A program made the position numbers and the translations under genes. A model generated the notes under the pieces. That model ran no database searches. It saw only the letters and a list, made by a program, of their open reading frames with translations, and was not told where the DNA came from. From a virus, in the IMG/VR virus record IMGVR_UViG_3300010938_000951, positions 186,001-250,000 of that record: DNA of 64,000 bases. One strand, written 5' to 3'. This document shows, piece by piece, positions 6,297-51,991 of this stretch. Each line of letters starts with the position of its first letter. The first letter of the stretch is position 1.

Positions 6297-6757
6297 AATA
6301 TCCGACAATTAGGCTTCCACCAAAAACTGAAGTGATTAAGATAAATATTTCGGAATCTTTTATGACCCGTGCTCGCTGCAAAGAATGTGGTAAAGGGCCT
6401 GATTACTACTATGCAACTATGAAGCCTTTTATGTGGAAAGAAGTCAAATATTTTATGATCTTTTCTGAGTTTTCTAAAAAGTGGTTTTCGAAAAACTCTG
6501 GTTGGTTTAAAGATTTCGAACCTCGCTATTTTACAAAGGCTGGAGATTTCTCTCGTCGATTAGAAGATAAATCATATAATCCTATTGTACATAGAACAAA
6601 AGGTGCGGATATTAATGACCGCTATAATGTTGTAGAATATATTGGTTGTGGATGCGGCGCTACTATATGGGCATTTAATAATGTTTCAGTACAAAAACGT
6701 CCAGAAATTACGAGCCGAAAGGGTCGATATAAATACCCTCAGAAGTTTTCATATTGA
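6293..6757 (+). CDS. Hypothetical zinc-binding protein, 154 aa
   Basis: The protein has CKEC near residue 27 and a CGCG pair near residue 121 (EYIGCGCGATIW), which could together hold one metal. Aromatic residues are abundant (YYYATMKPFMWKEVKYFMIF). It overlaps the upstream gene by four bases and its 3' end overlaps the convergent minus-strand gene by 50 bases. Function unknown; probably works with the preceding zinc-ribbon protein. Confidence 0.68.
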   Translation: MKYPTIRLPPKTEVIKINISESFMTRARCKECGKGPDYYYATMKPFMWKEVKYFMIFSEFSKKWFSKNSGWFKDFEPRYFTKAGDFSRRLEDKSYNPIVHRTKGADINDRYNVVEYIGCGCGATIWAFNNVSVQKRPEITSRKGRYKYPQKFSY

Positions 6758-7166
6758 GTTTTGGCAAGCGCTGGCGAACTTGTTCTTCGAGAAATAAGAA
6801 ATCATCAGCCAATTCTTCAAATAATTTCCATTCACGGTTAATAAGCTTGTAGCAAGAATAATAAGAAAGTCTAGCTACAGTATCATAATATTCTTTGCTT
6901 GCAAATTGAAGATGTTGCGGCGCAATTGTATTGGCAAAAAATATCCAATCTCCTAAATTTTGGTAGACCAAAAAATCTTGTTTGTCACGGGCTTGCGCAA
7001 ACAACAAAGTGACACTATCTTTGGATAAGTCGAACTCGGCGGTCTTAAATTTTCCATAAATGCTAACAATGTATGCTTTTGTATCACGTTGGCACTGGAG
7101 ATCGTTTAGTAGTTCTTCAAAGAAACTACTAATGTTTCTGTGAAATACATCCATAAGATGATACAA
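6708..7166 (-). CDS. Hypothetical protein on the minus strand, 152 aa
   Basis: One of only three minus-strand genes I accept. Composition is protein-like throughout (mixed helices, FFEELLND, LFEELADDFLFLEEQV), with ordinary codon choice and no low complexity. The start ATG at 7166 lies 24 bases from the topoisomerase start, so the two genes are divergent. It is convergent with, and overlaps, the end of the gene at 6293-6757. No motif was recognised. Confidence 0.6.
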   Translation of the reverse strand: MYHLMDVFHRNISSFFEELLNDLQCQRDTKAYIVSIYGKFKTAEFDLSKDSVTLLFAQARDKQDFLVYQNLGDWIFFANTIAPQHLQFASKEYYDTVARLSYYSCYKLINREWKLFEELADDFLFLEEQVRQRLPKLNMKTSEGIYIDPFGS

Positions 7167-7190
7167 GAATATTGAAAGACTCGGTGATAA

Positions 7191-8993
7191 ATGAAGACAT
7201 TAGTGATAGTAGAATCGCCAGCTAAGGCAGAAAAAATTCAAGGTTATTTAGGCAAAGACTATATTGTGTTGGCCAGTAAGGGTCACATTACTGATTTGGC
7301 TAAAGGCGGTCGATTTGGTTTGGGAGTTGATATTGATAAAGACTTTCGGCCACACTATGTTTTACAAGAAGATAAAATAGACACTTTAGACATGTTATTG
7401 AAAGCCACCAAGAAGTGCGATAACATTCTAATTGCAAGCGACCCCGATCGTGAGGGTGAAGCTATTGCTTGGCATCTTCAGGAGCGTTTAAAAGATACTG
7501 GATTACCAATTAAAAGAGTGGTTTTCAACGAAATCAAAAAAGATAAGGTTCAGAAGGCCATTAAATCTCCACGAGATGTAGATATTAATTTGTTTCATTC
7601 TCAAGAAGCCCGCCGCATACTAGATCGTTTAGTAGGATTTATGGCCTCACCATTTCTTATGAACTATTTTGGCCCGAAACTTTCTGCCGGTCGTGTTCAG
7701 TCTGTCGTTACTCGTATGGTTATTGACCGTGAGCGTGAGATTGAGGCTTTCGTTCCAGAAACTTTTTGGACTATCAGTGTTATGCTGGCTCCAGCTACAA
7801 ATATGAAGCACGGTTTCATGACTAAGTTTAATGGTCGCCCAACTGATGAAAAAATAGCCAAGTCAGTAAAAAGTACTTTGGATGTTGATCCGTATATTGT
7901 ATCAGAGGTTATTTCTGATGAGGAAGCAAAATATCCTCAACCACCTTTGGTAACTTCCACATTGCAACGAATTATGTCAAAACAGCATGGGTTTAGCGCT
8001 GATCGTACCATGAAAGCTGCGCAATCTCTATATGAAAATGGATATTGTACATATATTCGTACTGACTCTGTTCGAGTTGGCGATGAAGCCTTAGAAGATG
8101 TTCGTAAGTGGATCCAAGATCATAAGTACGGCCTACCTAAGAAGCCTTATTCTTATAAGAATAAGGATGCAGCACAAGATGCTCATGAATGTATTAGACC
8201 ATCGGATTTGACTTTAGAGCCTAATAATAACTATGCAATGGTTGATCCTGATGAAAAGTTGGTGTATGAGACTATTTGGAAGTATTTTGTTGCTAGTCAG
8301 ATGATGCCGGCCATCTATGATACAATGAAAGTTACTGCTCATATTAAAGGAGATCCAACTCATGAGGTGAAAGCATCTGGTAAAGCCCTTAAGAGTCAAG
8401 GATTTTTGGAAATCTTGGGCGTGCAAGATGATTCTAAAATTGATATCCCTGTACTTAAAGTCGGTGATATTCTAAATCGTTTTGGTAAAAATCCGGTTCA
8501 ACTAGAAAAGAAGCAGACACAGCCGCCACCAAGATATTCTGAAGATAAGCTTATTAAAGAATTAGTTACCAAGAATATCGGTCGTCCAGCCACTTATGCT
8601 GAATTGCTAAGTAAGATTAGTTCTCGCAATTATGTTGAGAAAAGGGGCAATGTCTTCCACGCTACAGATTTGGGCAAGAAAATTACCGATGAATTGATTC
8701 AGTTTTTTACTTTCATGGATTATGATTACACCGCAAAAATGGAACAACAACTTGACGAGATTGAAAGTGGAAAAGTTAATCATGTTGATATGTTGAAAAA
8801 GTTTTATCCTGAATTTAAAAAGGAGTTGGACAAGGCATATATTGGTCATGGCGCTAATATGTGCCCCAAATGTGGAAGTCCAATGTCTGTTCGTACAACC
8901 AAAACTGGTAAGTTTTGGGGATGCTCTGGATATCCTAAGTGTAAACACACTGTGAATATTACATCATCACAACCTGTAAATAATGTTGTTTAA
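7191..8993 (+). CDS. topA: DNA topoisomerase I (type IA)
   Basis: A 600-residue type IA topoisomerase. The N-terminal TOPRIM domain starts VIVESPAKAEKIQ and contains the DPDREGEAIAWHL acidic motif. The active-site tyrosine is Tyr288 in TYIRTDS. A C-terminal zinc ribbon (CPKCGSPM...CSGYPKC, about 565-590) is the only one kept, compared with three in E. coli TopA (865 aa), so this is a compact form. It relaxes negative supercoils behind moving polymerases. It begins the rightward operon after a divergent gene; its downstream neighbour is an AAA ATPase. Confidence 0.95.
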   Translation: MKTLVIVESPAKAEKIQGYLGKDYIVLASKGHITDLAKGGRFGLGVDIDKDFRPHYVLQEDKIDTLDMLLKATKKCDNILIASDPDREGEAIAWHLQERLKDTGLPIKRVVFNEIKKDKVQKAIKSPRDVDINLFHSQEARRILDRLVGFMASPFLMNYFGPKLSAGRVQSVVTRMVIDREREIEAFVPETFWTISVMLAPATNMKHGFMTKFNGRPTDEKIAKSVKSTLDVDPYIVSEVISDEEAKYPQPPLVTSTLQRIMSKQHGFSADRTMKAAQSLYENGYCTYIRTDSVRVGDEALEDVRKWIQDHKYGLPKKPYSYKNKDAAQDAHECIRPSDLTLEPNNNYAMVDPDEKLVYETIWKYFVASQMMPAIYDTMKVTAHIKGDPTHEVKASGKALKSQGFLEILGVQDDSKIDIPVLKVGDILNRFGKNPVQLEKKQTQPPPRYSEDKLIKELVTKNIGRPATYAELLSKISSRNYVEKRGNVFHATDLGKKITDELIQFFTFMDYDYTAKMEQQLDEIESGKVNHVDMLKKFYPEFKKELDKAYIGHGANMCPKCGSPMSVRTTKTGKFWGCSGYPKCKHTVNITSSQPVNNVV

Positions 8994-11468: not shown

Positions 11469-12302
11469 ATGGGACAAGAACCAAGAAAAGCTACTGATGT
11501 ATTACTAGATGTAGAATCAAAAGTAAGTATGTTATTAGATATCATACGTGCTCAAGATTTAAATATTAAAGTATTATCTAACAAATTAAATGAGGTAATT
11601 GGGCGCTTAGATAAACAGCAAGCGGGTCCGCCTAAGATTGTTGTTGAGGCCGTCCAAACTACACCGACCCCACCATCAATGGTGCCTCCTGGATTTACAC
11701 AGCTTCCGGCGGGTGATCCAGAAAAAACTATTCCAGTAGTTGCTGAATCTAAGCTACCACAATCAGAAGTACCAAATGGTTTCCGTCGTAGTTCACGACC
11801 AGAAACTTATGCGGGCGATAACGCTTATTTGCCACATCCTGATCAAGAGTTGAAAATGCCGGTTCAACTTCCGAAAGGAATGAATCGGCAGCAGGCAATG
11901 CAGCCACCTCCGGGACGTTCTGAGGTAACTGTACCACCAGCTATCACTACAAATAAAAATGTAAAATCGCAACCACTACCTCCGCCACAATTAGAAGAAA
12001 GTGAACCTCAACCGCCACCCGCAGTTGGTCAAATTCCAGTCATGCAACGCTGTGTTGATAAGAATGGTAAGTCTATTTTCTTAGCTCCAGTAGAAATTGT
12101 GGATGCAATGAGCGGTCAGCCGGTTTTTAAAACAAGAACAAATGGAACTGGAAAATGGATGGCTTCCCTTGGTATAGGAAGATATCGAGTAACGATCACT
12201 AAGCAAGCTACTTTGAATAAAGAAAAGCTTGAAGCGGTACAAGATATTCAAGTGGATGGCACCCAATCACCACTCGAATTACCGATGATCATCATCAAGT
12301 AA
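11469..12302 (+). CDS. Hypothetical protein: coiled coil, proline linker, beta-sandwich-like C-terminus
   Basis: Residues 1-50 look like a coiled coil (SMLLDIIRAQDLNIKVLSNK). A Pro/Gln-rich linker follows (about 60-185). The last 85 residues (about 190-277) look like a carboxypeptidase-regulatory or transthyretin-like beta sandwich: APVEIVDAMSGQPVFKTRTN then TGKWMASLGIGRYRVTI. Such domains are common in phage virion and surface proteins. A structural or fibre-associated role is possible, yet it lies among replication genes. Function unassigned. Confidence 0.65.
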   Translation: MGQEPRKATDVLLDVESKVSMLLDIIRAQDLNIKVLSNKLNEVIGRLDKQQAGPPKIVVEAVQTTPTPPSMVPPGFTQLPAGDPEKTIPVVAESKLPQSEVPNGFRRSSRPETYAGDNAYLPHPDQELKMPVQLPKGMNRQQAMQPPPGRSEVTVPPAITTNKNVKSQPLPPPQLEESEPQPPPAVGQIPVMQRCVDKNGKSIFLAPVEIVDAMSGQPVFKTRTNGTGKWMASLGIGRYRVTITKQATLNKEKLEAVQDIQVDGTQSPLELPMIIIK

Positions 12303-12314
12303 TTGCGAGGCCCT

Positions 12315-13013
12315 ATGGGTAAAAAATATTCTGTTATTGTAGCTGACCCTCCGTGGTCATTTAAAGATTCTCTAAAAATGTCTGATGTCAAGCGAGGCGC
12401 CCAGGCTAACTATGACACCATGACAATGCAACAAATTCGTGAGATGCCGGTCGAAAGGGTTTGCAATCCCGATGGGGCGGTCTTATGTTTATGGGTGCCA
12501 GGCTCTTTATTACAAGATGGTCTGGACACGATGAAAGCGTGGGGCTTTGAACATAAACAGACTTATGTATGGGTTAAAATTAAGAAACACAAATTCACAC
12601 GTTTCATTAAATGGATTAAGAAAAGCGTATTAAGACACCAGCAAATTGCTTATGATAAATTTGCTTACACTAGAGCGATAAACGCAATTATAAATAACCT
12701 ACCAAATATTGATTGGTCAGAAGAATTGGCATTTGGAATGGGTCGTTTGTTTAGACAAACACACGAGATTTGCTTAATTGGTACACGTGGAAAAATTCTT
12801 AATCAATTGGCTAACAAGTCACAGCGCTCTGTTAGTTTTGCTGAAAATTTGAGACATTCGGCTAAGCCGGATGCTCTCCAAGAATCATTGGAAACAATGT
12901 TTCCAATAGCTCGTAAACTAGAATTGTTCGCCAGGAGACTCCGACCCGGTTGGACTTGTCTAGGTAACGAGATTGATGGTAAAGACATATACGATGCTCT
13001 TGCCGAACTATAA
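12315..13013 (+). CDS. MT-A70-family adenine-N6 DNA methyltransferase
   Basis: The motif VADPPWSF lies near the N-terminus, with TMTMQQIREMP, LCLWVPGSLL, the late FRQTHEICLIGTRGK strand and an R(K)LELFARR segment. These are the MT-A70 landmarks; DPPW binds the target adenine. A phage enzyme of this kind would modify its own DNA (restriction avoidance) or, less likely, RNA. A region of about 50 residues (KKHKFTRFIKWIKKS...) is inserted between the motifs. ATG 12315 follows GCGAGG by four bases and is chosen over TTG 12303. An HNH endonuclease follows directly, but nothing shows that the pair forms a restriction system. Confidence 0.88.
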   Translation: MGKKYSVIVADPPWSFKDSLKMSDVKRGAQANYDTMTMQQIREMPVERVCNPDGAVLCLWVPGSLLQDGLDTMKAWGFEHKQTYVWVKIKKHKFTRFIKWIKKSVLRHQQIAYDKFAYTRAINAIINNLPNIDWSEELAFGMGRLFRQTHEICLIGTRGKILNQLANKSQRSVSFAENLRHSAKPDALQESLETMFPIARKLELFARRLRPGWTCLGNEIDGKDIYDALAEL

Positions 13014-13028
13014 ACGGAGAATAGAACA

Positions 13029-13538
13029 ATGCCAAAGAAGACGCTATTACTAAACGCAAGTTATGAGGTGCTTTCGTTTATTCCAGAGAGGAAAGTTTTC
13101 AAGTTACTTTTCAAAGACAAAGTAGAAGTTGTTTCTAATTGGGACGAATTTATTGTCTGGGGTAACGGAAAAATTCAGCACCCTTCTATCTTGAGATTGA
13201 AGACTCACGTTAAAAGAAATTACTTCAACTCAAATTTTAGTCGTAAGGCTTTAGTTAAAAGAGATAGAAGTACCTGTCAGTATTGTGGTAAAAAGCTAAC
13301 CGCTTCTCAAATTACAATAGACCACGTGTTACCAAGGGCCCAAGGCGGAATTACTTCTTTCTTGAACTGTGTGGTTTCATGTCAAATTTGTAATAATTCC
13401 AAAGCTGACAAAACGCCTGAACAAGCAGGTATGAAGCTGCTTAAAAAGCCAACCCATCCGTCTTTTTCTGCTCATTATTATGTTGCAGATCCACAAGAAT
13501 ATTGGCATAAAGATTGGGATGACTTTTTACGAGGATAA
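13029..13538 (+). CDS. HNH endonuclease
   Basis: A 169-residue protein. The N-terminal part (LLLNASYEVLSFIPERK) is typical of a widespread HNH group in phages and bacteria. The nuclease core has CQYCGKKL, the catalytic ITIDHVLPRAQGG, and CQICNNSKADKTPEQAG. Two CxxC pairs hold structural zinc. It could be a homing nuclease or a nuclease used in DNA processing; being on the same strand and in the operon order favours a domesticated gene. It is followed by a strong hairpin. Confidence 0.88.
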   Translation: MPKKTLLLNASYEVLSFIPERKVFKLLFKDKVEVVSNWDEFIVWGNGKIQHPSILRLKTHVKRNYFNSNFSRKALVKRDRSTCQYCGKKLTASQITIDHVLPRAQGGITSFLNCVVSCQICNNSKADKTPEQAGMKLLKKPTHPSFSAHYYVADPQEYWHKDWDDFLRG

Positions 13539-13552
13539 AACCTAGGTTGTCG

Positions 13553-13586
13553 GGAATGGGGATAATCAAAATATTATCCCCATTCC
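13553..13586 (+). terminator. Strong intergenic hairpin, possible terminator
   Basis: A perfect 14-bp stem, GGAATGGGGATAAT paired with ATTATCCCCATTCC, closes a 6-base loop (CAAAAT). It sits 15 bases after the HNH stop. No U tract follows, so it is not a classic intrinsic terminator; it may protect RNA 3' ends or attenuate transcription. Confidence 0.55.
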
Positions 13587-13622
13587 TTGGGCAATAATAT
13601 GGAATACCTATATACTTTCCCG

Positions 13623-13633
13623 TGATATATAGG
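13623..13633 (+). promoter_or_regulatory. TGATATATA motif, candidate extended -10
   Basis: TGATATATAGG lies just upstream of the gene at 13641 and ends in that gene's SD (AGGAAG). TG-N-TATATA resembles an extended -10 box. The motif recurs at several other gene junctions in this window. Confidence 0.3.
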
Positions 13634-13640
13634 AAGCACC

Positions 13641-13895
13641 ATGACCCAGGTAACATCTTGCAACTGCATTGTTTGTGCAAAAGAGTTCGATCCAGAAGAA
13701 CTTCAGAGCGTTGCTTTATCTAAAATCAATGTAACACGTTTTAAGATTTGCCAGTCATGCCTAGATCATTGTGATCCGGCCGAAGATTATCGTCAAGCTC
13801 GTGAAATTATTAGTTCATATTTGTGGTTTGCTGAGGCTAAGGGCTTGTTTAAAGAAGCCTCTGATCTCTTAGAAGATATTTCTAAGAAAAAATAA
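13641..13895 (+). CDS. Small zinc-finger protein, 84 aa
   Basis: It begins with CNCIVCAKEF and has CQSCLDHCDP about 25 residues later, a likely C4 zinc ribbon in the first half. A helical C-terminal half follows (SSYLWFAEAKGLFKEASDLLEDI). Start ATG 13641 has AGGAAG eight bases upstream. Function unknown; one of at least eight small Cys-rich proteins in the window. Confidence 0.72.
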   Translation: MTQVTSCNCIVCAKEFDPEELQSVALSKINVTRFKICQSCLDHCDPAEDYRQAREIISSYLWFAEAKGLFKEASDLLEDISKKK

Positions 13896-13897
13896 TA

Positions 13898-14050
13898 TTA
13901 TAATTCGATGATGATAACTCGTGGAGTTTCTTCATCACTTTTTTCTTGATATTGTGGTGGAGGCGGCTCTAACTCAACATAGAGCGGTTGTAACTCATCT
14001 TCTTTCTTCTTTTTTTCGATTTTGTGAATAAAAGGAAAGAACGTGTCCAT
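13898..14050 (-). CDS. Small acidic/proline-containing protein, 50 aa, minus strand
   Basis: Read on the minus strand, GGAGGCC precedes an ATG (first base 14050) and 50 codons follow to TAA at 13898. The protein begins MDTFFPFIHKIEKKKK, has the centre YVELEPPPPQYQ, and ends PRVIIIEL. It fills a stretch otherwise empty of genes, its stop lies two bases beyond the convergent gene's stop, and it has a good SD. Its ATG and the ATG of the divergent gene at 14051 abut in the palindrome CATATG. It is too short for standard ORF cut-offs. No family recognised. Confidence 0.55.
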   Translation of the reverse strand: MDTFFPFIHKIEKKKKEDELQPLYVELEPPPPQYQEKSDEETPRVIIIEL

Positions 14051-14287
14051 ATGGCCTCCGGTCTGTGTATATGTTGGAATATTGGTATGATGTGCTCATC
14101 CTGTTCCAAGTTAGCTCTATTATTTATTAATAGCAAGCAATGCATGCGTTGTCAAGGGTCAGTCGTTATTAATATGGCTGTAATTTGTGAAGTTTGTTCT
14201 GCAAATGATAAAATTTGTACTGTTTGTTTGAAAAAATTAACTCCTTTGCAGCCTAAGCCGGGCGGTTGCAACTGTGGTAAAAAGTGA
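14051..14287 (+). CDS. Cysteine-rich zinc-binding protein, about 78 aa
   Basis: CIC, CSSC, CMRC, CEVC, CTVC and CNC pairs are spread over 78 residues, so two or more zinc sites are likely. An in-frame GTG at 14024 would extend it by nine residues but lacks an SD and would overlap the divergent gene more. ATG 14051 has only a distant AAAGGA (14 bases). Start therefore uncertain. No family recognised. Confidence 0.6.
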   Translation: MASGLCICWNIGMMCSSCSKLALLFINSKQCMRCQGSVVINMAVICEVCSANDKICTVCLKKLTPLQPKPGGCNCGKK

Positions 14288-14297
14288 TTACCCTTAG

Positions 14298-14310
14298 AAA
14301 GATATATAGG
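14298..14310 (+). promoter_or_regulatory. GATATATAGG motif before the deformylase gene
   Basis: AAAGATATATAGG runs into the SD of the deformylase gene (ATG 14316). It is close to the TGATATATA motif at other junctions but has A instead of T before the G. It may be a -10-like element or only an A/T-rich SD context. Confidence 0.25.
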
Positions 14311-14315
14311 TAAGT

Positions 14316-14843
14316 ATGATAATCACAAATAATGAAGCAGCGCTCCGTGTGTTTTGCGAGCCTGTCACTATGGATGAAGTTGGCTCACTTATAGATACAC
14401 TAGAAAAAGAGCTAGAGTACGCTAATCGTTTGGGAAAAAACGGAATTGGATTAGCGGCACCACAAATAGGTATCGCAAAAGATATTGCTATTGTTAGGTT
14501 GCCAAAAATGAACTTTAATTTAGTTAATGCTAAATTAGTTCAAGGATATGATCCTGCTGTGTTTACAGACGAAGGTTGTTTGTCTTTCCCTGGTCGTCTA
14601 GAAAATACCACTAGATTTCAAGAGGTTCATATAACTAATAATTTGGTTGAACCGTATAGTTTTATTGCGACAGGTTTTGTGGCAGTTGTATGTCAACACG
14701 AATTGGATCATTTAAACTCTACACTATTTATGGATCGTAGTATCCCAAAACAGACACCAGTAGTTAGAAAAGCAAAAATCGGACCAAATGAGCCATGTGT
14801 TTGCGGATCTGGCAAAAAATATAAAAAGTGTTGTGGTCGATGA
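14316..14843 (+). CDS. def: Peptide deformylase fused to a C-terminal SEC-C zinc motif
   Basis: All three deformylase motifs are intact: [10 protein letters not shown] (43-52), EGCLS (Cys88) and QHELDH (His128, Glu129, His132), which bind Fe2+/Zn2+ and remove the N-formyl group from nascent chains. Residues 158-175 are a SEC-C motif, with Cys161, Cys163, Cys172 and Cys173 in the C-x-C...SG-KYKKCC pattern known from the SecA C-terminus. Phage deformylases are usually shorter, and the host enzyme carries a helix that docks on the ribosome in this position. The SEC-C tail may serve as a substitute dock (inference). It overlaps the next gene by four bases. Confidence 0.92.
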
Positions 14844-15025
14844 AATGTCCAAAATGTAAGAGTTCCCGAACGCGCAAAGTATGGGTACATGAATCTAATT
14901 GGCATGTTGGGCACCAAATATGTCAGGATTGTGGCCATCAGGATGATTGGCTTTTATTTTGTGACCCGCCAATAATTATTAAATCTGAACCTTATATTAT
15001 AGATCCGGGAGATTCAAATGAGTGA
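14840..15025 (+). CDS. Small zinc-ribbon protein, 61 aa
   Basis: Starts ATG 14840, overlapping the deformylase stop as ATGA. CPKC at residues 3-6 and [10 protein letters not shown] about 25 residues later form a zinc ribbon resembling those of topoisomerase tails or transcription factors. Translational coupling to the deformylase suggests a related role, but function is unknown. Confidence 0.72.
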
Positions 15026-15269
15026 TAAAAAAGAATTAAATACTGATATTTTAATAGCAGACATAATGCTACGCCTAACTGCTTTAGAAAAGCTTTTAAT
15101 TGAAAAGGGGCTATTAACACAAGCAGAATTAGCCACTACAACTGATGAGTTAGCTAAAAGAGTAGCTAAAGTTGTTTTAGAAAAGGTACAAGCATCAAAA
15201 CAAGTAGAAGAATTTGTTGCTGATTTAGAAAAATCAACAGGTACAGATAAAAAGGGCCTTGATAATTAA
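15018..15269 (+). CDS. Hypothetical helical protein, 83 aa
   Basis: It is mostly helical and charged, with likely coiled-coil heptads (DIMLRLTALEKLLIEKGLL). GGAGATTCAA gives a good SD to ATG 15018. It overlaps the upstream gene's end by eight bases and shares TAATG with the following thioredoxin-like gene. Function not recognised. Confidence 0.68.
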   Translation: MSDKKELNTDILIADIMLRLTALEKLLIEKGLLTQAELATTTDELAKRVAKVVLEKVQASKQVEEFVADLEKSTGTDKKGLDN

Positions 15270-15568
15270 TGCAGTTCATTACTCAAGAAGATGAAATACA
15301 AATTAATTTACCATTACAAGCTTTGTATTTTTATGCATCTTGGATGCCGTACCATAGTAAATTTCTTACTATGATATCAAAAACAGAAGAAAAACACAAA
15401 AACATATCCTTTTTTGCTATTGATGTAGATGCTTTCCCTAATCAATGTAAGAGATTTTCTATTGATTCTATTCCTGAAGTAATAGTTTTAAAGGAAGGTA
15501 AAGAAATAAAGAGGATTAGCGGGCTTACTCTTACTAGTGCTTTTAGAAGCGCTTTTGCTGATATATAA
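15269..15568 (+). CDS. Thioredoxin-fold protein lacking both active-site cysteines
   Basis: A 99-residue protein with the thioredoxin layout: strand ALYFYASW, then active-site helix, FFAIDVDAFP, and the cis-Pro loop SIPEVIVLKEGKEI. The canonical WCGPCK is replaced by WMPYHSK, so both redox cysteines are gone. The fold is well supported, and disulfide exchange is excluded. The known example of a thioredoxin used without redox chemistry is the T7 polymerase processivity factor, though that one is a host protein. A scaffold or processivity role is a guess. Overlaps the upstream stop as TAATG. Confidence 0.78.
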   Translation: MQFITQEDEIQINLPLQALYFYASWMPYHSKFLTMISKTEEKHKNISFFAIDVDAFPNQCKRFSIDSIPEVIVLKEGKEIKRISGLTLTSAFRSAFADI

Positions 15569-15570
15569 AT
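15559..15570 (+). promoter_or_regulatory. TGATATATAAAT motif at a gene junction
   Basis: The motif spans the stop codon of the thioredoxin-like gene, 24 bases before the likely start of the next gene (15594). Same core as the other TGATATAT sites; because it encodes the last residues (ADI-stop) it could be coincidental. Confidence 0.2.
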
Positions 15571-15593
15571 CTTGAAACCGAATGGAGCAAGTT

Positions 15594-15989
15594 ATGCCAA
15601 AAAAATCAAGCAAAAAGACCAAAGTAACTAAACCTGCAAAAAAGACAGTAAAGAAGACTAAGAAGGTAGAGCAAGTAACTACTCCTCCAGCAGTTGTTGC
15701 TCCGGTGCCCCTTCCTCCACCACCCCCTGTTAAAACAGAGGCCGAAAAAATTTGGGATGAGATTAAAGATCGTCCAATCGAAATGTTCGGTCTGCCAGAT
15801 CAATATGTATTCCAACATACAACTTTTGTAACTGTGGAGCCAAGTGCATTATATGTAACGATTCGATCAAGTGCCACTCTTCCATCTTTAGAAGCAGCAA
15901 TTGCTCCTCATTTTACCGTTGAGCTGGCTGATAAGTTTGTAGTTATTAGGCGCGTCCCAAAACCACTAATCCCATCTAAAAAGAGATAA
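15594..15989 (+). CDS. Lysine-rich-tailed hypothetical protein, 131 aa
   Basis: The first 30 residues are Lys/Thr-rich (KKSSKKTKVTKPAKKTVKK), like a histone H1 tail. A Pro-rich hinge (PVPLPPPPPV) follows, then a folded domain of about 75 residues. ATG 15594 has GGAG six bases upstream, while ATG 15582 has no SD. The basic tail suggests DNA or RNA binding. The folded domain (YVTIRSSATLPSLEAAIAPHF) is not recognised. Confidence 0.68.
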   Translation: MPKKSSKKTKVTKPAKKTVKKTKKVEQVTTPPAVVAPVPLPPPPPVKTEAEKIWDEIKDRPIEMFGLPDQYVFQHTTFVTVEPSALYVTIRSSATLPSLEAAIAPHFTVELADKFVVIRRVPKPLIPSKKR

Positions 15990-15992
15990 TGT

Positions 15993-16523
15993 ATGACAAA
16001 TAGAAATGGACAGCCGCCACCACCAGGACAAAATACTTTACAGGGCCCAGACGAATATACGCCTAAAATTGGCGTGAAAGGTCAGGGACAATCTATGTTT
16101 GATAGTAGAAGGAAAAAACCTACTCAGCAAGAATTTCAACAACAAGTGCAGCAAACACAAGAAACTTTGTCTGGATATAAAAAACGTGCGGCTGATTTGT
16201 TTTTACAATTTCAAAAAGCAATGGCAGATAAAACTCTGCCGCAAAATCGTAATATATTCAATATAGAATCTGAAAAAGAACTTCTACAAAATATGATTGT
16301 TTTGGCGGCCGAGATTAACAGCGATCCTAATGAAAGAGAAAGTGAAGGATCGTTAACTTGGATTGTTTTGTTATTAAAGACTTGTTTTGCGCAGCGAGAT
16401 AGGTTAAATGAGCTAGAGTATACGCTGGCTCAACTTCAAAAGAAGATAGATCCAACTGCTATGGCCGACTTCATTAATAAAGAAATTATTAAGGCGCTTG
16501 ACAGTAAAAAAGGTAATGAATAA
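15993..16523 (+). CDS. Hypothetical protein, 176 aa
   Basis: A disordered N-terminus (PPPPGQNTLQGPD) and Gln-rich segment (QQEFQQQVQQTQE) precede a helical body ending in a probable coiled coil (DRLNELEYTLAQLQKKID). It follows the Lys-rich gene after three bases and overlaps the next start. No motif is recognised. Confidence 0.65.
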   Translation: MTNRNGQPPPPGQNTLQGPDEYTPKIGVKGQGQSMFDSRRKKPTQQEFQQQVQQTQETLSGYKKRAADLFLQFQKAMADKTLPQNRNIFNIESEKELLQNMIVLAAEINSDPNERESEGSLTWIVLLLKTCFAQRDRLNELEYTLAQLQKKIDPTAMADFINKEIIKALDSKKGNE

Positions 16524-17219: not shown

Positions 17220-18409
17220 CTAATGCCATAATTCTTGGCGATGTGCATCTGGGTAAAGGAACAAACATTGGCAAAGGCGGTGTTGGTTCTACTCTTAATA
17301 GCCGCATCGTTGATCAACTAAATTTATTAGACTGGACGTTAGATCGTGCAGTAGAGCATCATGCCGATCACATCATCATCACCGGAGACGTGTTTGAAGA
17401 GCCTAGACCACATCCAGGTCTGATTACATTATTTATCGCATGGCTAAAGAAATGTCAAGTCCATGATGTTAGCGTTCACATCATTGTTGGAAATCACGAT
17501 ATTTTACGCAATGGGCTTGTATCAAATTCCCCGCTCGATATCGTTAGCGAAGTCGAACTAGAAGGGATTAGTGTCTATAAAGACATTAACACCATCATAC
17601 TTGGCACAACAGCATTTACACTGGTGCCATTTCGTGATAGAAAATCATTTAGTGTCAATTCTAATGCGGAAGCAATTTCGCTTGTACGCGATAGCCTTGT
17701 CTATGAACTAGCTAGTATCCCAACTACCTATCGAAAAGTGTTAGTGGGACATTTGGCTATTGAGGGATCAATTCCTATCGGCGATGAAATTGATGATTTG
17801 ACCAATGAGTTGTTTTGTCCTTTGGATATGTTTCAAGGATATGACTATGTTTGGATGGGCCATGTTCATAAGCCGCAAGTAATGAAAAAGAAAAATCCTT
17901 ACATCGCCCATATTGGAAGTATGGATATTTCTAACTTTGGCGAAACTGATCATGCAAAGCATATTGTCATCTTCAATTGCGAAGAGGATAATTGGACAAG
18001 GGAATTTTTGCCCACTAGGCCCTTGCAAAAGATTGCCATCAGTGTTCCAAAAGATACAGAAGATACAACCTCCTATGTTTTAGATGAAATTAAGAAAGCG
18101 GGCGTTCAAGATAAAGCGATCGTTAAGGTCGAAGTGTCTCTAACTTCTCCAGACTTGAAATCAATCAATAAAGCCGCTATCGAGAAATATTTGACAGGTC
18201 ATGGTGCCTTTAATGTAAATGCCATTTACGAATCTAAAAAAGTTAATCTTATTAAAAAGGATAATACCAATACAATCGATTCAAAAATGGATGTGGCCGC
18301 TGCTATTAAGACCTATGCACAAACATATATAGAAGATGCTCTGCGTCCAGGTTTTATTGAATTGGCTATGGAAATTCATAATACCTATAAATCCGAGGGC
18401 AAAGAATGA
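17216..18409 (+). CDS. SbcD/Mre11-type exonuclease subunit (gp47-like)
   Basis: Calcineurin-like phosphoesterase motifs appear in order: GDVHLG (residues 8-13), ITGDVFEEP, VGNHDILRNG, VGHLAIEG and MGHVHKPQ. These bind the two Mn2+ ions of the Mre11 nuclease. Length (397) fits SbcD/gp47. With the Rad50-like subunit encoded next (ATGA overlap) it resects double-strand ends for recombination-dependent replication, as gp46/gp47 do in T4. Confidence 0.93.
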   Translation: MTNAIILGDVHLGKGTNIGKGGVGSTLNSRIVDQLNLLDWTLDRAVEHHADHIIITGDVFEEPRPHPGLITLFIAWLKKCQVHDVSVHIIVGNHDILRNGLVSNSPLDIVSEVELEGISVYKDINTIILGTTAFTLVPFRDRKSFSVNSNAEAISLVRDSLVYELASIPTTYRKVLVGHLAIEGSIPIGDEIDDLTNELFCPLDMFQGYDYVWMGHVHKPQVMKKKNPYIAHIGSMDISNFGETDHAKHIVIFNCEEDNWTREFLPTRPLQKIAISVPKDTEDTTSYVLDEIKKAGVQDKAIVKVEVSLTSPDLKSINKAAIEKYLTGHGAFNVNAIYESKKVNLIKKDNTNTIDSKMDVAAAIKTYAQTYIEDALRPGFIELAMEIHNTYKSEGKE

Positions 18410-20631
18410 GACCATCTAGATTATATGTAAAAGATTTTATGTGCTATGATGACGCGTATATTGATTTCTCACAATTCAATTCGGCTCTTATCATAGGCAA
18501 ATCAGATAATCCAGATGTTTCCAATGGTGTTGGCAAGACTACGCTTTTTAGAGCAATTGAATATGTTCTTTTTAATTACTCGGATGTTAATCTGGAAGAT
18601 ATTATTCGTGATGATGCTGATAAGTGCAGTGTAACTCTTGATTTTATTGTAGGTAACGAGGAATACAGAGTCACGCGCACACGCACGCGCAAGGGTACAA
18701 CCGATCTTACTCTTTACAAACGTACTGCGTTGGATGGCGAAGAAACAGAAGTATTGCATTCTATTAATGGAGATCGTTACATTCCCTTATTAGATGATGT
18801 AGAAAAATACTGGAAAGACATATCTGGACGTCGTGCCGCTGACACTGACAAAGAGTTAGCAAAACTAGTTAAGGTGAATTTGAAATCCTTTAGGATATTT
18901 ATTCACTTCTTACAACGTGATTTTGGTGGGTTAACAACAGCTACACCTGAAACGCGTAAAAAGATTTTGAAAGATGCTTTGAATTTAATTGTGTATTCAA
19001 AATTAGAAAAGCTTGCTAAAGAGAAATCGTCCGCCCTTCAAAAAGAGTCGGACAAATTTCGCACACTCATCAACAGCTTAGGGGATCCTGATGCTACTAT
19101 GGCAGAAATCTCTAGCAAATTAATAGATGTGGAAAAAGAAATTTCTAGTCGTTCACTTAAAGTTGGAGATTTAGAAGTTCAGATAAACGCAGCTAATGAA
19201 AATGTCAATAGGCTTGTTAATGAGCACTCTAATTTAGAAAGTAAATTCTCTAATTTGGTCGAGAAAGAACAATCTCTTAACGTAGAGAAAACCAAAATAG
19301 AAACATCTATTAAAGAATATACTACTAAAAAATCTAATGTTATTAAGGTTGCCCATGAGGCCGTAGCTGAGCTTAAACAATTGGAAGAAACTCAAATCAA
19401 ACTAGTTGATTTAGATTATAATCAAATAGATGTTCTTTCCGAAAAGATTGTTTCAAATAAAGAAAAAATAGCCCAACTAAGCCTTACTATTCAAAATGAT
19501 TTGGCAAGAGTCGATAAGTTAAGAAAACCTATTCCTGAAGATGGCGAATGTGAAGAATGTCGCCAACCAATTACGGCAGAACATAGAAAAATTTGCCAAC
19601 AGAAACTTGATCAGGAGTTGCGTGAGAAGCAGGTTAATATTCAGTCTTGTAAGAAGGATATTGCTGCATTGAATGCTGAAAATGCCGTTCATCAGCAAAC
19701 CATTAATACATTAACGCTTTCTAAACAGCACCTAGAAAGTATTAACAACAAAATCTCTGCCAAGAAAAAAGAAGTTACTGATAAGCGTGCCATTCATGAT
19801 GAGTATAAGGTATTATTGGATAAGTTTACCTCTGAATTAGAAGATAAAATTAAAGAGATGGATGCTATTACTGAGCAGCTTCAAAACTCTTCTGCGATTA
19901 AAGAGGCAAAAATTCTTGAAAAACAAATTCAAGAAGAGAGGCAAAAAGCAAAATCTATTGAATCACAGATTCTTATCAATAATAAAGAACTGAATCATTT
20001 TAATAGCACCAAAGCTGTTTTACAACATGATTTAAATCAAAGAATAGATGAAAAGCGCAAGAAAATAGAATATACAAAGTTGCTAAAAGAAATTGAAGAC
20101 AAGTTAGGTATGTACCCAGCAGTTGTTCAAGCTTTTTCTAGTACTGGTATTCCTAATTTGATTATACAAAATGTTCTTGATGATTTACAAATTGAGGCCA
20201 ATACATTGCTAGCTCAATTAAAACCGGGTCTACAATTATCTTTCTCAGTTGAGAAAACCGTAGAAAAGACAGGCGATCAAGCAGATACATTAGATATTCA
20301 TTATACCGTTAATGGTAAGAAACGATATTATGAAAATATTTCTGGGGCCATGCAATTAGCAGTTAACTTTAGTTTAAAGTTAGGTCTATCTTTCTTGTTG
20401 CAAAAATTAAGTGGCGTAGATGTTCGCTTCTTGTTGTTAGATGAGATTGATCAATCTTTAGATAAAGCTAGTGTAGATTTCTTTGCTGATATAGTGAAGC
20501 TCTTTTCTAAAGACTATACTATATTGGTCATTACTCATAATGATCGTTTGAAAGATAAATTCTCACATGCAGTGTTAGTGGAACAAGATATAAATATGGT
20601 ATCACGTGCGAAGGTTGTATCTTCGTGGTGA
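18406..20631 (+). CDS. SbcC/Rad50-type ATPase subunit (gp46-like)
   Basis: A 741-residue SMC-like ATPase. Walker A is near residues 40-46 (GVGKTTLF); two long coiled-coil arms flank a zinc hook (Cys382-x2-Cys385, CEECRQP). The signature (ENISGAMQLAVNFS) and Walker B (FLLLDEIDQSLD) lie near the C-terminus, followed by a VITHNDR switch. It pairs with the Mre11-like subunit encoded immediately upstream, overlapping by four bases. Confidence 0.95.
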   Translation: MRPSRLYVKDFMCYDDAYIDFSQFNSALIIGKSDNPDVSNGVGKTTLFRAIEYVLFNYSDVNLEDIIRDDADKCSVTLDFIVGNEEYRVTRTRTRKGTTDLTLYKRTALDGEETEVLHSINGDRYIPLLDDVEKYWKDISGRRAADTDKELAKLVKVNLKSFRIFIHFLQRDFGGLTTATPETRKKILKDALNLIVYSKLEKLAKEKSSALQKESDKFRTLINSLGDPDATMAEISSKLIDVEKEISSRSLKVGDLEVQINAANENVNRLVNEHSNLESKFSNLVEKEQSLNVEKTKIETSIKEYTTKKSNVIKVAHEAVAELKQLEETQIKLVDLDYNQIDVLSEKIVSNKEKIAQLSLTIQNDLARVDKLRKPIPEDGECEECRQPITAEHRKICQQKLDQELREKQVNIQSCKKDIAALNAENAVHQQTINTLTLSKQHLESINNKISAKKKEVTDKRAIHDEYKVLLDKFTSELEDKIKEMDAITEQLQNSSAIKEAKILEKQIQEERQKAKSIESQILINNKELNHFNSTKAVLQHDLNQRIDEKRKKIEYTKLLKEIEDKLGMYPAVVQAFSSTGIPNLIIQNVLDDLQIEANTLLAQLKPGLQLSFSVEKTVEKTGDQADTLDIHYTVNGKKRYYENISGAMQLAVNFSLKLGLSFLLQKLSGVDVRFLLLDEIDQSLDKASVDFFADIVKLFSKDYTILVITHNDRLKDKFSHAVLVEQDINMVSRAKVVSSW

Positions 20632-23489: not shown

Positions 23490-24737
23490 ATGCAAATTGA
23501 AGTAACTGAATTAGAACCATGCAGACTGTCTGTTCACTATGAGGCTAACTTCCTGGAAATCTCTGATAAGAGAGCAGAAGTTGAAAGTGCTTTTAAGAAA
23601 GCTCCTGTACCAGGATTTAGACCAGGTAAAGTACCACCTGAAGCTATTAGAGTTCATTATCGTCAACAGATTGACGACTCTCTAAAGCGCGCGCTTGCAG
23701 AAGATGCATTTCACAATACTCTTTTCGAAAAGAAAATTAGACCACATGGTGCCCCACGTTTTAATAGTTTACTATTAGACGGCGGTAAGTTTACTTGTGA
23801 CTTTGAAATTCTAACCAAGCCCGATTTTGAAGTGCCTGCTTGGAAAGATATGGAAGTCGCAAAGCCACACGGGGAAATGGAAGCGTCTGTTCTAGCCGAG
23901 AAAATGATGCAAGAGTTGCGTGTTCGTTTAGGTGAAGTATCTCCTTATACCGATACTGATTTCGTTCAATCTGGAGACAATGTCATCATTGATTATAAAG
24001 GCACCGTAGATGGTCAAGTTGTTGATAGTCTAGTGGCTGAAGGAGAGATGATTACTATTGGTAATAGCCCATTAGCCGCTTTTGATAACAACTTATTAGG
24101 TATGTCCTTAGATGAAGTCCGTGAATTTGATTTCGTGGCACCTCCACAAGGATTACCATCTTTAGCTGGTAAAACTGTTCACTTTACAGTCACATTGAAG
24201 ATGGGCTCTAAGACCGTTCCATGTGCCCTAGATGATGAAATGGCAAAAAAGATGGGTAAAAATACGTTTGAAGAATTACAGGAAACTGTATCTCAAGCAG
24301 CTTTTGCTCGTGCAGCTAATATGAATAAGATGGCAGTTCAAGAAGCAGTAGCTAGAAAACTTATTACTAGTGTTGATATTAAAGTTCCAAATTGGATGTC
24401 TTTATCTGAAGCGCAATATCTAAGCCACCAATCCCAACTAGATTGGAATGCTATGCAAGATTCAGACAGAGAGAAAATGATTGAAATGGCCGAGCAAAAT
24501 GTTAAGTTATCTTTGATTCTAGATAAGATTAGAGAATCTGAGCCGGAAGCACAGCTAACTGACCAGGAAGTGTTTGAAATTATCAAACAAAATTTGGCCA
24601 ATACCAAAGTGACGCAAAGTTTAGATGAGGTCATTCAGCAAATGAATAAGACAGGTTATCTACAAATTTTGTTCCAGCGCATTAAAGATGAAAATACTAT
24701 GGATTACATAGTAAAGTCAGTAAAGTTGATTGATTAA
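23490..24737 (+). CDS. tig: Trigger factor (ribosome-associated chaperone/PPIase)
   Basis: A 415-residue homologue of bacterial trigger factor (432 in E. coli). The ribosome-docking signature GFRPGKVP sits at residues 42-49, matching GFRKGKVP. The PPIase-like FKBP domain (about 155-240) includes DNVIIDYKGTVDGQVVD and the long substrate-binding C-terminal helices follow. The docking loop is conserved, so it should bind uL23 at the tunnel exit and meet nascent chains. GAGGAAACA gives a good SD. Phage-encoded trigger factor is very rare to my knowledge. Confidence 0.93.
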   Translation: MQIEVTELEPCRLSVHYEANFLEISDKRAEVESAFKKAPVPGFRPGKVPPEAIRVHYRQQIDDSLKRALAEDAFHNTLFEKKIRPHGAPRFNSLLLDGGKFTCDFEILTKPDFEVPAWKDMEVAKPHGEMEASVLAEKMMQELRVRLGEVSPYTDTDFVQSGDNVIIDYKGTVDGQVVDSLVAEGEMITIGNSPLAAFDNNLLGMSLDEVREFDFVAPPQGLPSLAGKTVHFTVTLKMGSKTVPCALDDEMAKKMGKNTFEELQETVSQAAFARAANMNKMAVQEAVARKLITSVDIKVPNWMSLSEAQYLSHQSQLDWNAMQDSDREKMIEMAEQNVKLSLILDKIRESEPEAQLTDQEVFEIIKQNLANTKVTQSLDEVIQQMNKTGYLQILFQRIKDENTMDYIVKSVKLID

Positions 24738-39393: not shown

Positions 39394-39834
39394 ATGGAAC
39401 GTAGAAAAAATCGCAGTGACAAATACCAGTGGGTTTTGCTTGAAACAGTTTGTTCAAATGATATGATGGAGGCGTTTTGCAATGAGGATAGTATCTCAGC
39501 AAGACTTAATCCGTTTGAATACAATGAGGACTTAATTGAATTAGAAGAGCAGCTCAAAAAAGAGTTTTGGAGGGTGGTTGATACTTTATTGACTCCAAGA
39601 CAAAGAGAAGTAATTAGACTTTATGCTGATGGCTATACCCAGATGGAGATAGCTAAAATGCTGAATGTAAATCAAAGCAGCATTACAAAAAGCCTTAACG
39701 GAAACGTAGATTATAAGAATGGAAAGAAAATCTATGGCGGGGCTAGAAAGAAAATCCGTAAGATAATTGAAAATGATGAGAAAATCAAGGATATTCTCAG
39801 CAAAATGGCAGAGTGTCGTGATGAAAAGTGGTAA
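39394..39834 (+). CDS. Sigma-70 region-4-like DNA-binding protein
   Basis: Residues about 66-107 (LTPRQREVIRLYADGYTQMEIAKMLNVNQSSITKSL) match the sigma-70 region 4 helix-turn-helix. A basic tail follows (KNGKKIYGGARKKIRKI). No region 2 (-10 recognition/core binding) is present, so it is not a full sigma factor. T4 uses the small sigma gp55 and co-activators with partial resemblance; this may be a late-gene sigma-like factor or a promoter activator (inference). It stands at the border between the replication and head modules, an apt place for a late switch. Confidence 0.75.
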   Translation: MERRKNRSDKYQWVLLETVCSNDMMEAFCNEDSISARLNPFEYNEDLIELEEQLKKEFWRVVDTLLTPRQREVIRLYADGYTQMEIAKMLNVNQSSITKSLNGNVDYKNGKKIYGGARKKIRKIIENDEKIKDILSKMAECRDEKW

Positions 39835-39937
39835 TATTCTGAAATCTACGTAGTAGGTATATTGCCAATAAAGTACAGAATTAGTATCAATATTACTCTA
39901 TTTAAGATAGGGTACGTTCTGTTCAACGGGAGACATA

Positions 39938-40402
39938 ATGCCAAAATTTAATATAGATTACTCAGGTTTGGCCAATCAGATTACAAAGAGGGCTTATCGT
40001 CTTTCTGATGTAAAAGATCAGTTAGAAACTGTGGCTTTTGATGTGGTTAGATTTAAGGATGGCGACAAGGGTGCTGAACTTTGGCAAGTTCAAAGCGCAG
40101 ATGATGGAGATTACATCGTTGCCTTATATGATGAAGAAGAGGTTGAAAAAACTGCTTCTGCTAATCCTTGGGGCGTTTACGTTTCTAAGAATGGACATGA
40201 TTTACAAGTTTCTTACAAGGGAGATCCTCTTGTAAGATTTGCTGCTTCCAAGCTTGGAATTCCAAGTTCAGAGCTACATAAGGCTGAACAGTACCTACCA
40301 GAAAAGCTTGCCACAAATAAGAAGCTCGTCAAAGCACTTTTGAGTGAGCTAAGTGAAACAGCTAGACTAGAGGTATCCAAGAGATACCCGGAACTGGTAT
40401 AA
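39938..40402 (+). CDS. Hypothetical protein, 154 aa
   Basis: A mixed alpha/beta protein (AELWQVQSADDGDYIVALYDEEEVEK) ending in a helical part. The GGGAGACATA SD is good. It stands at the start of the head module after a 104-base gap; no motif is seen. The ending ETARLEVSKRYPELV looks like an amphipathic helix. Function unknown. Confidence 0.68.
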   Translation: MPKFNIDYSGLANQITKRAYRLSDVKDQLETVAFDVVRFKDGDKGAELWQVQSADDGDYIVALYDEEEVEKTASANPWGVYVSKNGHDLQVSYKGDPLVRFAASKLGIPSSELHKAEQYLPEKLATNKKLVKALLSELSETARLEVSKRYPELV

Positions 40403-49584: not shown

Positions 49585-50091
49585 TTACCCAGCCTGTTTT
49601 TGAGTATTTCTAGTGGGCCTAATTACTATTTCAGGCTTATCATGTGGACAATATCCAAAAAATCCTTTAGCACAGTTGCAATTATAGCATAATAATTGAT
49701 ATTCTTCTTTAGGAAAGTTATTTTTAATTAGCCAACGGTATAATTTACCACCAGATTTCTTACCATTTTGTCGTCGATCTTCTGCACCATCATTATTTAT
49801 GTGATCAATAGTTAGAAATTCTAAGGTAGTTTCCCCACAACAAGTGCATTTGCCACCATAGGCTTCTATAATTTTTTGTTTAACACTAAGATCATAAACT
49901 CTTTGTTGTTCTCTTATTATTTCTTTTCTATTTGTATATCTTCTTTTGCTATATTCTTTACAACAAAAGATACACATATATTTAGCCTGTTTAATATCGG
50001 AAGGTCTAGTATTATCTTTAGTTAGGCTTTTGAAGCATACAGTGCAGCTTTTGCCTTCAAAACTATATTGTCGTTTTTTCTTATCTGTCAT
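49585..50091 (-). CDS. HNH homing-type endonuclease, minus strand
   Basis: A 168-residue HNH nuclease. N-terminal CTVC...CIFCCKEYSKRRYT looks like a zinc finger. The nuclease core has CTCCGETTLEFLTIDHINNDG, a LYRWLIKNNFPKEEYQ segment and LCYNCNCAKG; this spacing is typical of phage free-standing homing endonucleases. It is the only minus-strand gene in the head module, lying between two + strand genes, and its ATG overlaps a possible terminase ATG (CATG). It looks like a recent insertion next to the terminase. The other HNH at 13029 is a different subtype. Confidence 0.85.
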   Translation of the reverse strand: MTDKKKRQYSFEGKSCTVCFKSLTKDNTRPSDIKQAKYMCIFCCKEYSKRRYTNRKEIIREQQRVYDLSVKQKIIEAYGGKCTCCGETTLEFLTIDHINNDGAEDRRQNGKKSGGKLYRWLIKNNFPKEEYQLLCYNCNCAKGFFGYCPHDKPEIVIRPTRNTQKQAG

Positions 50092-50113
50092 GGGTATATT
50101 TCAGAATATATCC

Positions 50114-51991
50114 ATGAACAATGATACTTATAAAGAAATGTTTTATAGGTTTAAGGATAAGCTAGCTAATCTTGATCCGGTAGAATTTTGCCAGAAACAT
50201 TTAACACTTGAAGGAGAGCCATTTTCTCTCGTAGGCAACGGGTATAAACCTTTCAGCGATATCTATAGATACATTGGAATTAAGGCATTAGAAAAAGATT
50301 CTAAACCAGTTATTCTAGTAAAGGGACGTCAGGTAGGTGCTACTACCATGGCAAGCGCCCTTGAAATGTATTTCATGGGCTCTGGTTTATTTGGAGATGG
50401 ATTCCGTCCACCAATTCGTGTTATTCATGCTTTTCCTCAATTAGAATTAGCGGCAGCTTATTCAAAAACTAAACTCAATCAAATGATTTCTCAGGCTAAA
50501 ATCCCTGAGGGAGCCGTAGAAAATAAAGCATCTCGTCCAAAGTCTTTCATGCAGCAATTGCTTGATACTACGACTGCTACTAATGACTCTTTACATTTTA
50601 AACAATTCTTGGGCGGAAATCACTTGTGGATTGAATCTACTGGTGTAGATGCCGACAGAATCATGGGTCGTACCGCTGATATCATATTTTTTGACGAGGT
50701 ACAGAAAACTACCAGTGTAGCTATTGGAAACGCGCTTAAAATTTTAACCAACGCCAAATATGGTAAGCCAACTAAAGGCGTACAAGTATTTTTTGGAACG
50801 CCACGTCGTAAGGGATCTGATTATCATAAGATGTGGCAATCATCATCTCAGCAGTATTATTATCTTGGATGCGAAAAATGCGAAAAGCATTTTCCTCTTT
50901 ATACTCCAGGTTCTGATGATTGGGAAAAAGTTTGGATTCACGGTATGATTGTTAAATGTACCCATTGTGGTCATGAACAAGATAAACTACAAGCACAAGA
51001 ACGTGGTAAGTGGGTTCCGCTAAAAGATCCAAACGATCCAGATTGCGCAATGGTTGGGTTTCATATTAACCAACTTTACATGCCAAAATTTACACGAGAA
51101 GATATTGAAAAAGAAAAGCCTGGTAAACATCCGATCAACACAGAGCGCGTTTTTCAAAATGAGGTTCTTGGAGAGTTTTATCAAGGTGATGCTACCCCAA
51201 TGTCTCCAGAAGACATTCGTGTAAATTGTGCCGATTTCGAAAGAAAATTTAGCCCTCGTATTTTGCCAGCTAAAGGTGTAACGCAACAATTAACTGTACT
51301 TGGAATCGACTACGGTGCACGTTCAGATTTGGAACAACTAGCAGACCCAGAAAGAGTAAGACCAGCAGGACAATCTTATAGTACAGCAGTTGTATTACAA
51401 ACAAAAGGCCCAAGTATACTATCAATTGAGTTTGCTACCAAATTTAAACGAAATGACATAGAAAGCAAAAAAGGTATAATTGATCAGTTGATGAGACAGT
51501 ACAGTATACAATTGGCTATTGGAGACATTGGTTATTCTAATGACTTCTCATCTCTATTGCATAATACATACGGAGATAGATACTTAGTGTCTCGTGCTCA
51601 TAATAAAGTTAATGAGCATGTTAAGTTCAATCATGAAGCTTTTCCAAAAGAAATTGTTTTTGAAAGAGATTTTTATATTAGTGAACTTTACGATCAAATG
51701 AAAAAAGGATTAGTTAGGTTTCCATATGGCGATTATGAGAAAATCGCATGGCTTATTGATCATTGTTGTAGTATGGAATTAAAACCATCTATTTCTAAAT
51801 ATGGAGATCATACAGTACATTATGTTAAAGGCGGCACTCCAAACGATGGATTTATGGCATTATTAAATGCTTATTTGGCCTATAAATTCCTGGTAAGTCG
51901 AGGGTTTACAAATAATAATCCAACATTACACAATACTAAAAACTTGACGAAACCTATGGTAATTACTGGCTATGTACCTAGGAAGTTCTAA
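50114..51991 (+). CDS. terL: Terminase large subunit (GpA-like)
   Basis: The ATPase domain has VKGRQVGATT (Walker A-like), the region IIFFDEVQKT (Walker B with catalytic Glu) and FFGTPRRKGS (coupling). A zinc finger (CEKCEKHF...CTHCGHEQ) lies in the middle, then the nuclease domain: VLGIDYGARSDL (first Asp), AIGDIGYSND (second Asp). It packages DNA into proheads and cuts concatemers. ATG 50114 gives MNNDTYKEMF; an in-frame ATG at 50090 (MGIFQNIS) is the alternative. Neither has a strong SD, perhaps because the HNH insertion displaced it. Confidence 0.93.
   Translation: MNNDTYKEMFYRFKDKLANLDPVEFCQKHLTLEGEPFSLVGNGYKPFSDIYRYIGIKALEKDSKPVILVKGRQVGATTMASALEMYFMGSGLFGDGFRPPIRVIHAFPQLELAAAYSKTKLNQMISQAKIPEGAVENKASRPKSFMQQLLDTTTATNDSLHFKQFLGGNHLWIESTGVDADRIMGRTADIIFFDEVQKTTSVAIGNALKILTNAKYGKPTKGVQVFFGTPRRKGSDYHKMWQSSSQQYYYLGCEKCEKHFPLYTPGSDDWEKVWIHGMIVKCTHCGHEQDKLQAQERGKWVPLKDPNDPDCAMVGFHINQLYMPKFTREDIEKEKPGKHPINTERVFQNEVLGEFYQGDATPMSPEDIRVNCADFERKFSPRILPAKGVTQQLTVLGIDYGARSDLEQLADPERVRPAGQSYSTAVVLQTKGPSILSIEFATKFKRNDIESKKGIIDQLMRQYSIQLAIGDIGYSNDFSSLLHNTYGDRYLVSRAHNKVNEHVKFNHEAFPKEIVFERDFYISELYDQMKKGLVRFPYGDYEKIAWLIDHCCSMELKPSISKYGDHTVHYVKGGTPNDGFMALLNAYLAYKFLVSRGFTNNNPTLHNTKNLTKPMVITGYVPRKF

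Follow-up and report, generated by a model that had tools for sequence, protein, structure and literature searches.

Divergent gene pairs of phages have short intergenic promoters, and in antisense-RNA and transcription-interference switches one gene lies antisense to a transcript from the opposite strand. The locus described here resembles both types of system in part. As in other divergent phage pairs, at least one gene has its ribosome-binding site and a promoter-like element in a short gap; in contrast to them, the recognisable element belongs to the minus-strand member only, and the plus-strand partner appears to be operon-borne. As in antisense and interference switches, a transcript expected from the other strand would be antisense to the minus gene, but the overlap of the starts is not conserved and a co-directional form exists. 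A third resemblance concerns the plus protein, which shares repeated CxxC pairs and weak profile matches with the zinc-binding proteins of CRIPT and DUF2039. These are eukaryotic families, whereas the plus protein is encoded by a phage, and the member from the DNA analysed here stays under the DUF2039 cut-off.

The window, i.e., the whole stretch of DNA that was analysed (64,000 nt), covers positions 186001-250000 of a virus record 266,899 bases long and belongs to a huge phage. The reading that we favour, with a probability of roughly 0.7, is that a single-copy small gene stands reversed in a rightward row, has its own promoter and is expressed independently of the divergent plus gene, the contact of the two frames in a CATATG being accidental. 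In the proposed mechanism, the minus gene, a conserved small-protein gene of a huge-phage group, is reversed inside the rightward gene row, and only a short gap, here of 36 nt, separates it from the divergent Cys-rich plus gene. A conserved TATTC-N4-AT element in the gap would act as the minus promoter, the resulting mRNA being short and its leader roughly 20-25 nt long. Translation of the plus gene would begin at the ATG at 14087, on RNA of an operon transcribed from further upstream. Where such operon RNA reads through, it would run antisense to the minus gene, and some transcriptional interference might occur as a secondary effect.

Genomic Setting

Almost all long ORFs in the window run rightward. 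The neighbours of the small-gene pair are an MT-A70 methyltransferase, an HNH protein, an 84-aa Cys-containing protein, and a peptide deformylase with a SEC-C motif. The gene for the 84-aa protein (13641-13895, plus strand), known from the ORF listing and from relatives, is convergent with the minus gene across a 2-nt gap. The deformylase gene (14316-14843, plus strand), recognised by a domain match and by its relatives, encodes a C-terminal SEC-C motif and served as the syntenic anchor. Peptide deformylase in huge phages has been mentioned previously (PMC7162821). In L027, L028, L030, and L031, a gene named IF-3-like from its sequence stands directly before the deformylase gene.

Among named phages, the DNA of 12300-16500 found no match, and neither small protein was matched by tblastn. 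No Rfam family was found in 13000-15200. In the literature surveyed, mostly at the level of abstracts, no mention of the small-gene pair was seen, which does not prove its absence there. An SbcC-like protein encoded in the same window (18406-20631) has matches in 247 phage records, Staphylococcus phages making up most of them, at less than 60% identity (23-24% among the matches listed).

The Reversed Small Gene

The 50-codon minus-strand ORF reported in the first-pass annotation is present at 13898-14050. It starts with ATG, and a GGAGG (14055-14059, minus strand) lies 4 nt before this codon. Relatives support the GGAGG as a Shine-Dalgarno sequence, GAGG or GGAG being found in 18 of 19 syntenic leaders (the exception is L088). 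The encoded protein of 50 aa (MDTFFPFIHKIEKKKK..PLYVELEPPPP..EETPRVIIIEL) is conserved, shows a coding codon pattern, and occurs as a single copy in related phage records. It opens with a hydrophobic N-terminus (FFPFI), continues with a stretch rich in lysine, PLYIEL, prolines, and an acidic stretch, and ends in VIIIEL.

Relatives were gathered by a deformylase search, and the best 80 of 184 loci were used. Among these, tblastn recognised the minus protein at 33-83% identity in the syntenic loci having it, and a full-length homologue was present in 18 loci, so that the stop codons which the annotation had named as a ground for dropping the small frame did not appear in these relatives. Duplicates (L003, L010, L012, and L021) were removed before counting. 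The set of 18 omits L006 and L014, from which the minus ORF is absent, L020, which the search pattern missed, L025, whose conserved minus frame has no ATG, and L026-L031, in which the plus gene was not found; the set of 19 leaders consists of the 18 loci and L020. The frame of the gene is open in 18 of 18 loci by construction, as the sequences were cut at the stop, and the evidence therefore lies in the similar length of the 18 homologues. Each of the remaining five frames of the strip is stopped in 16-18 of the 18 loci, and length changes among the homologues keep the frame. Mismatches to five close relatives fall at codon positions 1, 2, and 3 in numbers of 55, 20, and 116 (247 codon comparisons). 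Pooled pN/pS, calculated from proportions with no correction for multiple hits, is 0.21 for the minus gene (15 pairs of 6 loci) versus 0.20 for the plus gene. Judged by these patterns, the minus ORF is a genuine protein-coding gene, and conservation of both frames in relatives, proposed earlier as a check, marks the minus and the plus gene alike as real.

A profile built from 21 members detected exactly one copy of the minus gene in 24 of 27 related phage records. The three records without it, G003 (L006), G009 (L014), and G024 (L030), measure 139, 37, and 116 kb, respectively, and are possibly fragments. No Pfam or PHROG family was found for the protein of the window. When the 21 members were compared with PHROGs, only five weak single-member matches were obtained (best E 0.034), and a PDB profile search with the family gave matches at chance level (best E 0.34). 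The predicted structure has a mean pLDDT of 68.6, with no secondary structure reported. The family is without a match in the libraries searched, and the arrangement of the gene pair is ordinary. As a guess from the sequence, the protein might be a short adaptor whose two ends, both hydrophobic, dock onto proteins of the phage or the host. The gene adds a small-protein family to which no Pfam or PHROG family could be assigned, found once per record in those 24 records and easily overlooked with its 50 codons on the "wrong" strand.

The Cysteine-Rich Partner and the CATATG Contact

The plus gene (14087-14287, plus strand) encodes a Cys-rich protein of 66 aa with repeated CxxC, which probably binds zinc. 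Of its nine invariant cysteines, eight form four CxxC pairs. The CRIPT profile matches 10 of 22 members of the plus family (best E 0.00062) and that of DUF2039 matches 15 of 22 (best E 0.0031). The protein from the window reaches 15.7 bits with DUF2039, below the Pfam cut-off of 27, and has no CRIPT match. Two family members match a RING-type zinc finger (best 0.0002), and the family profile matches the PDB chain 7dvq_0 with an E of 0.00091. Structure prediction for the plus protein gave a mean pLDDT of 50.1.

The start of this protein had been placed at the CATATG of 14048-14053, where the plus-frame ATG at 14051 abuts the start of the minus gene. The open frame with that ATG does exist; as the true start, however, relatives support 14087. 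Both their conservation and their open plus frame begin at MMC.., i.e., at the ATG at 14087 (an MxC start). Within up to 40 codons upstream of MxC, an in-frame ATG, GTG, or TTG is absent in 18 of 22 loci, those having one being the window, L005, L016, and L088. The frames of the relatives rule out both ATG 14051 and GTG 14024 as the plus start.

The hexamer itself gives little reason to see a meaningful site, as its count is at chance level (16 in the window versus 18.3 expected) and it is not conserved: among the 18 loci compared, CATATG is present in 1, and L005 has an overlapping CATGATG. The distance from the minus to the plus start is 33-46 nt in all 18 loci and 36 nt here. The lower limit comes from L011, where an upstream ATG gives a 33-nt gap; the ATG with GGAGG gives 45, and the range is then 35-46. 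The directly adjacent start codons described at first pass are private to the genome of the window, in which the supported plus start lies 36 nt away. The contact in CATATG therefore looks like a coincidence of this genome, and, striking as it is, it is removed as a mechanism. The accompanying proposal on the Shine-Dalgarno sequences, each inside the coding or leader region of the other gene, is not supported as it stands. With the plus start 36 nt away, the GGAGG before the minus gene falls within the plus leader, outside the plus coding region. The likeliest plus Shine-Dalgarno sequence of that proposal, aaaggaaag (14031-14039), belongs to the minus coding sequence, where it can be read as the complement of the conserved FFPF codons.

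Orientation and the Question of a Switch

Relative to the deformylase gene, the minus gene is opposite in 20 of 24 records and co-directional in 4 of 24 (those of L027, L028, L029, and L031); pairing with the plus gene is therefore dispensable. The plus gene stands alone in L006 and L014, where it starts 1 and 13 nt, respectively, after the upstream stop. Together with the co-directional copies, this indicates that the partners are separable.

Between 13641 and 14160 a simple scan for terminators was negative, so rightward operon RNA probably continues through the minus gene, to which it is antisense. Such read-through would be the basis of an antisense or head-on switch, in which the minus gene is silenced by rightward RNA or polymerase, expression of the plus gene drops when the minus gene is transcribed, and the two are used in different phases of infection. 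The position of the minus gene wholly within the rightward row, with no terminator found in that stretch, is consistent with this model, as are the short gap kept in all 18 loci and the reverse orientation kept in most records. A sigma-70-type scan adds two weak, overlapping minus-strand sites inside the plus gene (14234-14205; 9 of 12 matches) and leaves the TATTC-N4-AT element unflagged; it found 10 sites in the scanned region versus 6.7 expected. A promoter at 14234-14205, if real, would yield an antisense leader over the plus start. The switch is nevertheless unlikely in view of the co-directional records, the plus gene without its partner in L006 and L014, and the unconserved adjacency of the starts. 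Neither is overlap of the start regions conserved, nor is joint occurrence in opposite orientation universal, and the mutual exclusion of the two genes suggested earlier is left unsupported by these comparisons.

The Candidate Promoter in the Gap

Read on the minus strand, the gap is AATATTCCAACATATACACAGACCGGAGGCCAT, followed by ATG. The TATTC-N4-AT at 14071-14081 (minus strand), supported by relatives, is the candidate promoter of the minus gene. The exact pattern is present in 13 of 19 syntenic minus-gene leaders versus 0 of 17 deformylase leaders taken as a control; the six leaders without it are those of L011, L017, L018, L019, L022, and L024. The pattern is AT-rich and was noticed before being tested, i.e., post hoc. 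Since its total in the window is at chance (20 versus 18.0 expected), the argument rests on placement and not on number.

Two other reverse genes of the window bear on this placement. The second (6708-7154, minus strand; 148 aa) is head-to-head, at 36 nt, with a plus gene at 7191 that reads as topoisomerase I-like. It has no Pfam or PHROG family among those searched and was found in 15 loci. A TATTC-N4-AT match precedes it at 7161-7171 (minus strand). Of 11 distinct loci, 10 have CAATATT at this position and 5 the exact TATTC-N4-AT; L125, one of the 11, begins at query residue 7 and has a doubtful leader. The third (49585-50091, minus strand), HNH-type by its sequence, has its match at 50098-50108 (minus strand) and is head-to-head with a plus gene that reads as terminase-like and has in-frame ATGs at 50090 and 50114. 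The former overlaps the start of the reverse gene; the latter is 22 nt away, with TATTCTGAAAT in the gap, and the forward leader at this ATG lacks TATTC-N4-AT. On the plus strand, TATTCTGAAAT also occurs at 39835-39845, directly after a gene (39394-39834) whose product reads as a sigma-region-4-like or HTH small protein, and about 100 nt before the gene at 39938.

Taken together, 3 of the 3 reverse genes examined (starts at 14050, 7154, and 50091) have a TATTC-N4-AT in the 70 nt before their start, versus 0 of 55 forward starts, which were listed by hand and are a subset of the forward genes of the window (one entry, 50113, stands for the ATG at 50114). With a matrix derived from 13 family loci, the leaders of the other two reverse genes rank first and second of 57 window leaders, the forward ones again listed by hand, by a narrow margin (9.7 and 8.9 versus 8.1 for the best forward gene). 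A motif-like sequence was found where the plus gene is lacking, in L026 (P=0.012) and L031 (0 of 1000 shuffles). The matrix gave no significant score in L029 (P=0.30) and G021 (P=0.11), and it scored P=0.029 on the control L006, which has no minus gene.

Several other words were considered and rejected as promoters. GATATATAGG, found before 13641 and 14316, has 5 matches at up to one mismatch, with 4.07 expected. As general promoter motifs, TATGNNRGAATA (12 versus 13.8 expected) and TAWTYYRRSATAT (10 versus 9.7) are at chance level in the window. Over the whole record, TAWTYYRRSATAT has 51 matches versus 16 for the pattern read backwards. Of its two other exact matches, that at 23927 (minus strand) falls outside ORFs of more than 80 aa and is not followed by a reverse ORF of this size, and that at 60185 (plus strand) lies within a forward ORF. 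A looser pattern of the element gave three matches: forward ORFs contain two of them, and the third, located between forward ORFs, has behind it no reverse ORF of more than 90 aa. Another related pattern gave 12 matches versus 6 in the backward control.

TATTC-N4-AT is likely to be the own promoter of the minus gene, and it provides a testable candidate element for reversed genes. It is graded no higher than likely because of the contrary results, namely its post hoc recognition, L029 and G021, the inexact leaders, L006, the similar words elsewhere in the record, which fall within coding sequence or in gaps that have no reverse gene, and the sigma-70-type scan. A wider generalisation would be that the huge-phage group keeps a few small genes reversed in operons, each preceded by a gap of about 20-40 nt that carries a TATTC-N4-AT promoter of its own, and that read-through acts as an antisense timer, shutting the reversed gene when the rightward genes are switched on. 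This is speculative and quite unlikely.

Other Readings of the Gap and of the Frame

The element in the gap might instead be a two-way promoter or operator that also serves the plus gene. Its AATATT core is palindromic and only a few nucleotides from the plus ATG. Moreover, the plus start closely follows the upstream stop in the two loci that lack the minus gene (L006 and L014); help for the plus gene may therefore be required only if the row is split by the minus gene. Against this, conservation of the element reaches further on the side of the minus gene than on the other, a plus RNA started from the element would have almost no leader, given the distance to the plus ATG, and motif-like sequence is kept in L026 and L031 with no plus gene. 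Dual use of the element is thus very unlikely, and a promoter serving the minus gene only, with the plus gene read from upstream, is preferred.

That the minus ORF is a chance frame, conserved through a constraint on plus-strand RNA, would suit its low-complexity composition, its want of a Pfam or PHROG family, and its low-confidence structural model, but this is almost certainly wrong given the codon-position pattern, the pN/pS, the frame-keeping length changes, the stops in the other frames, and the occurrence of the gene in the other orientation as well.
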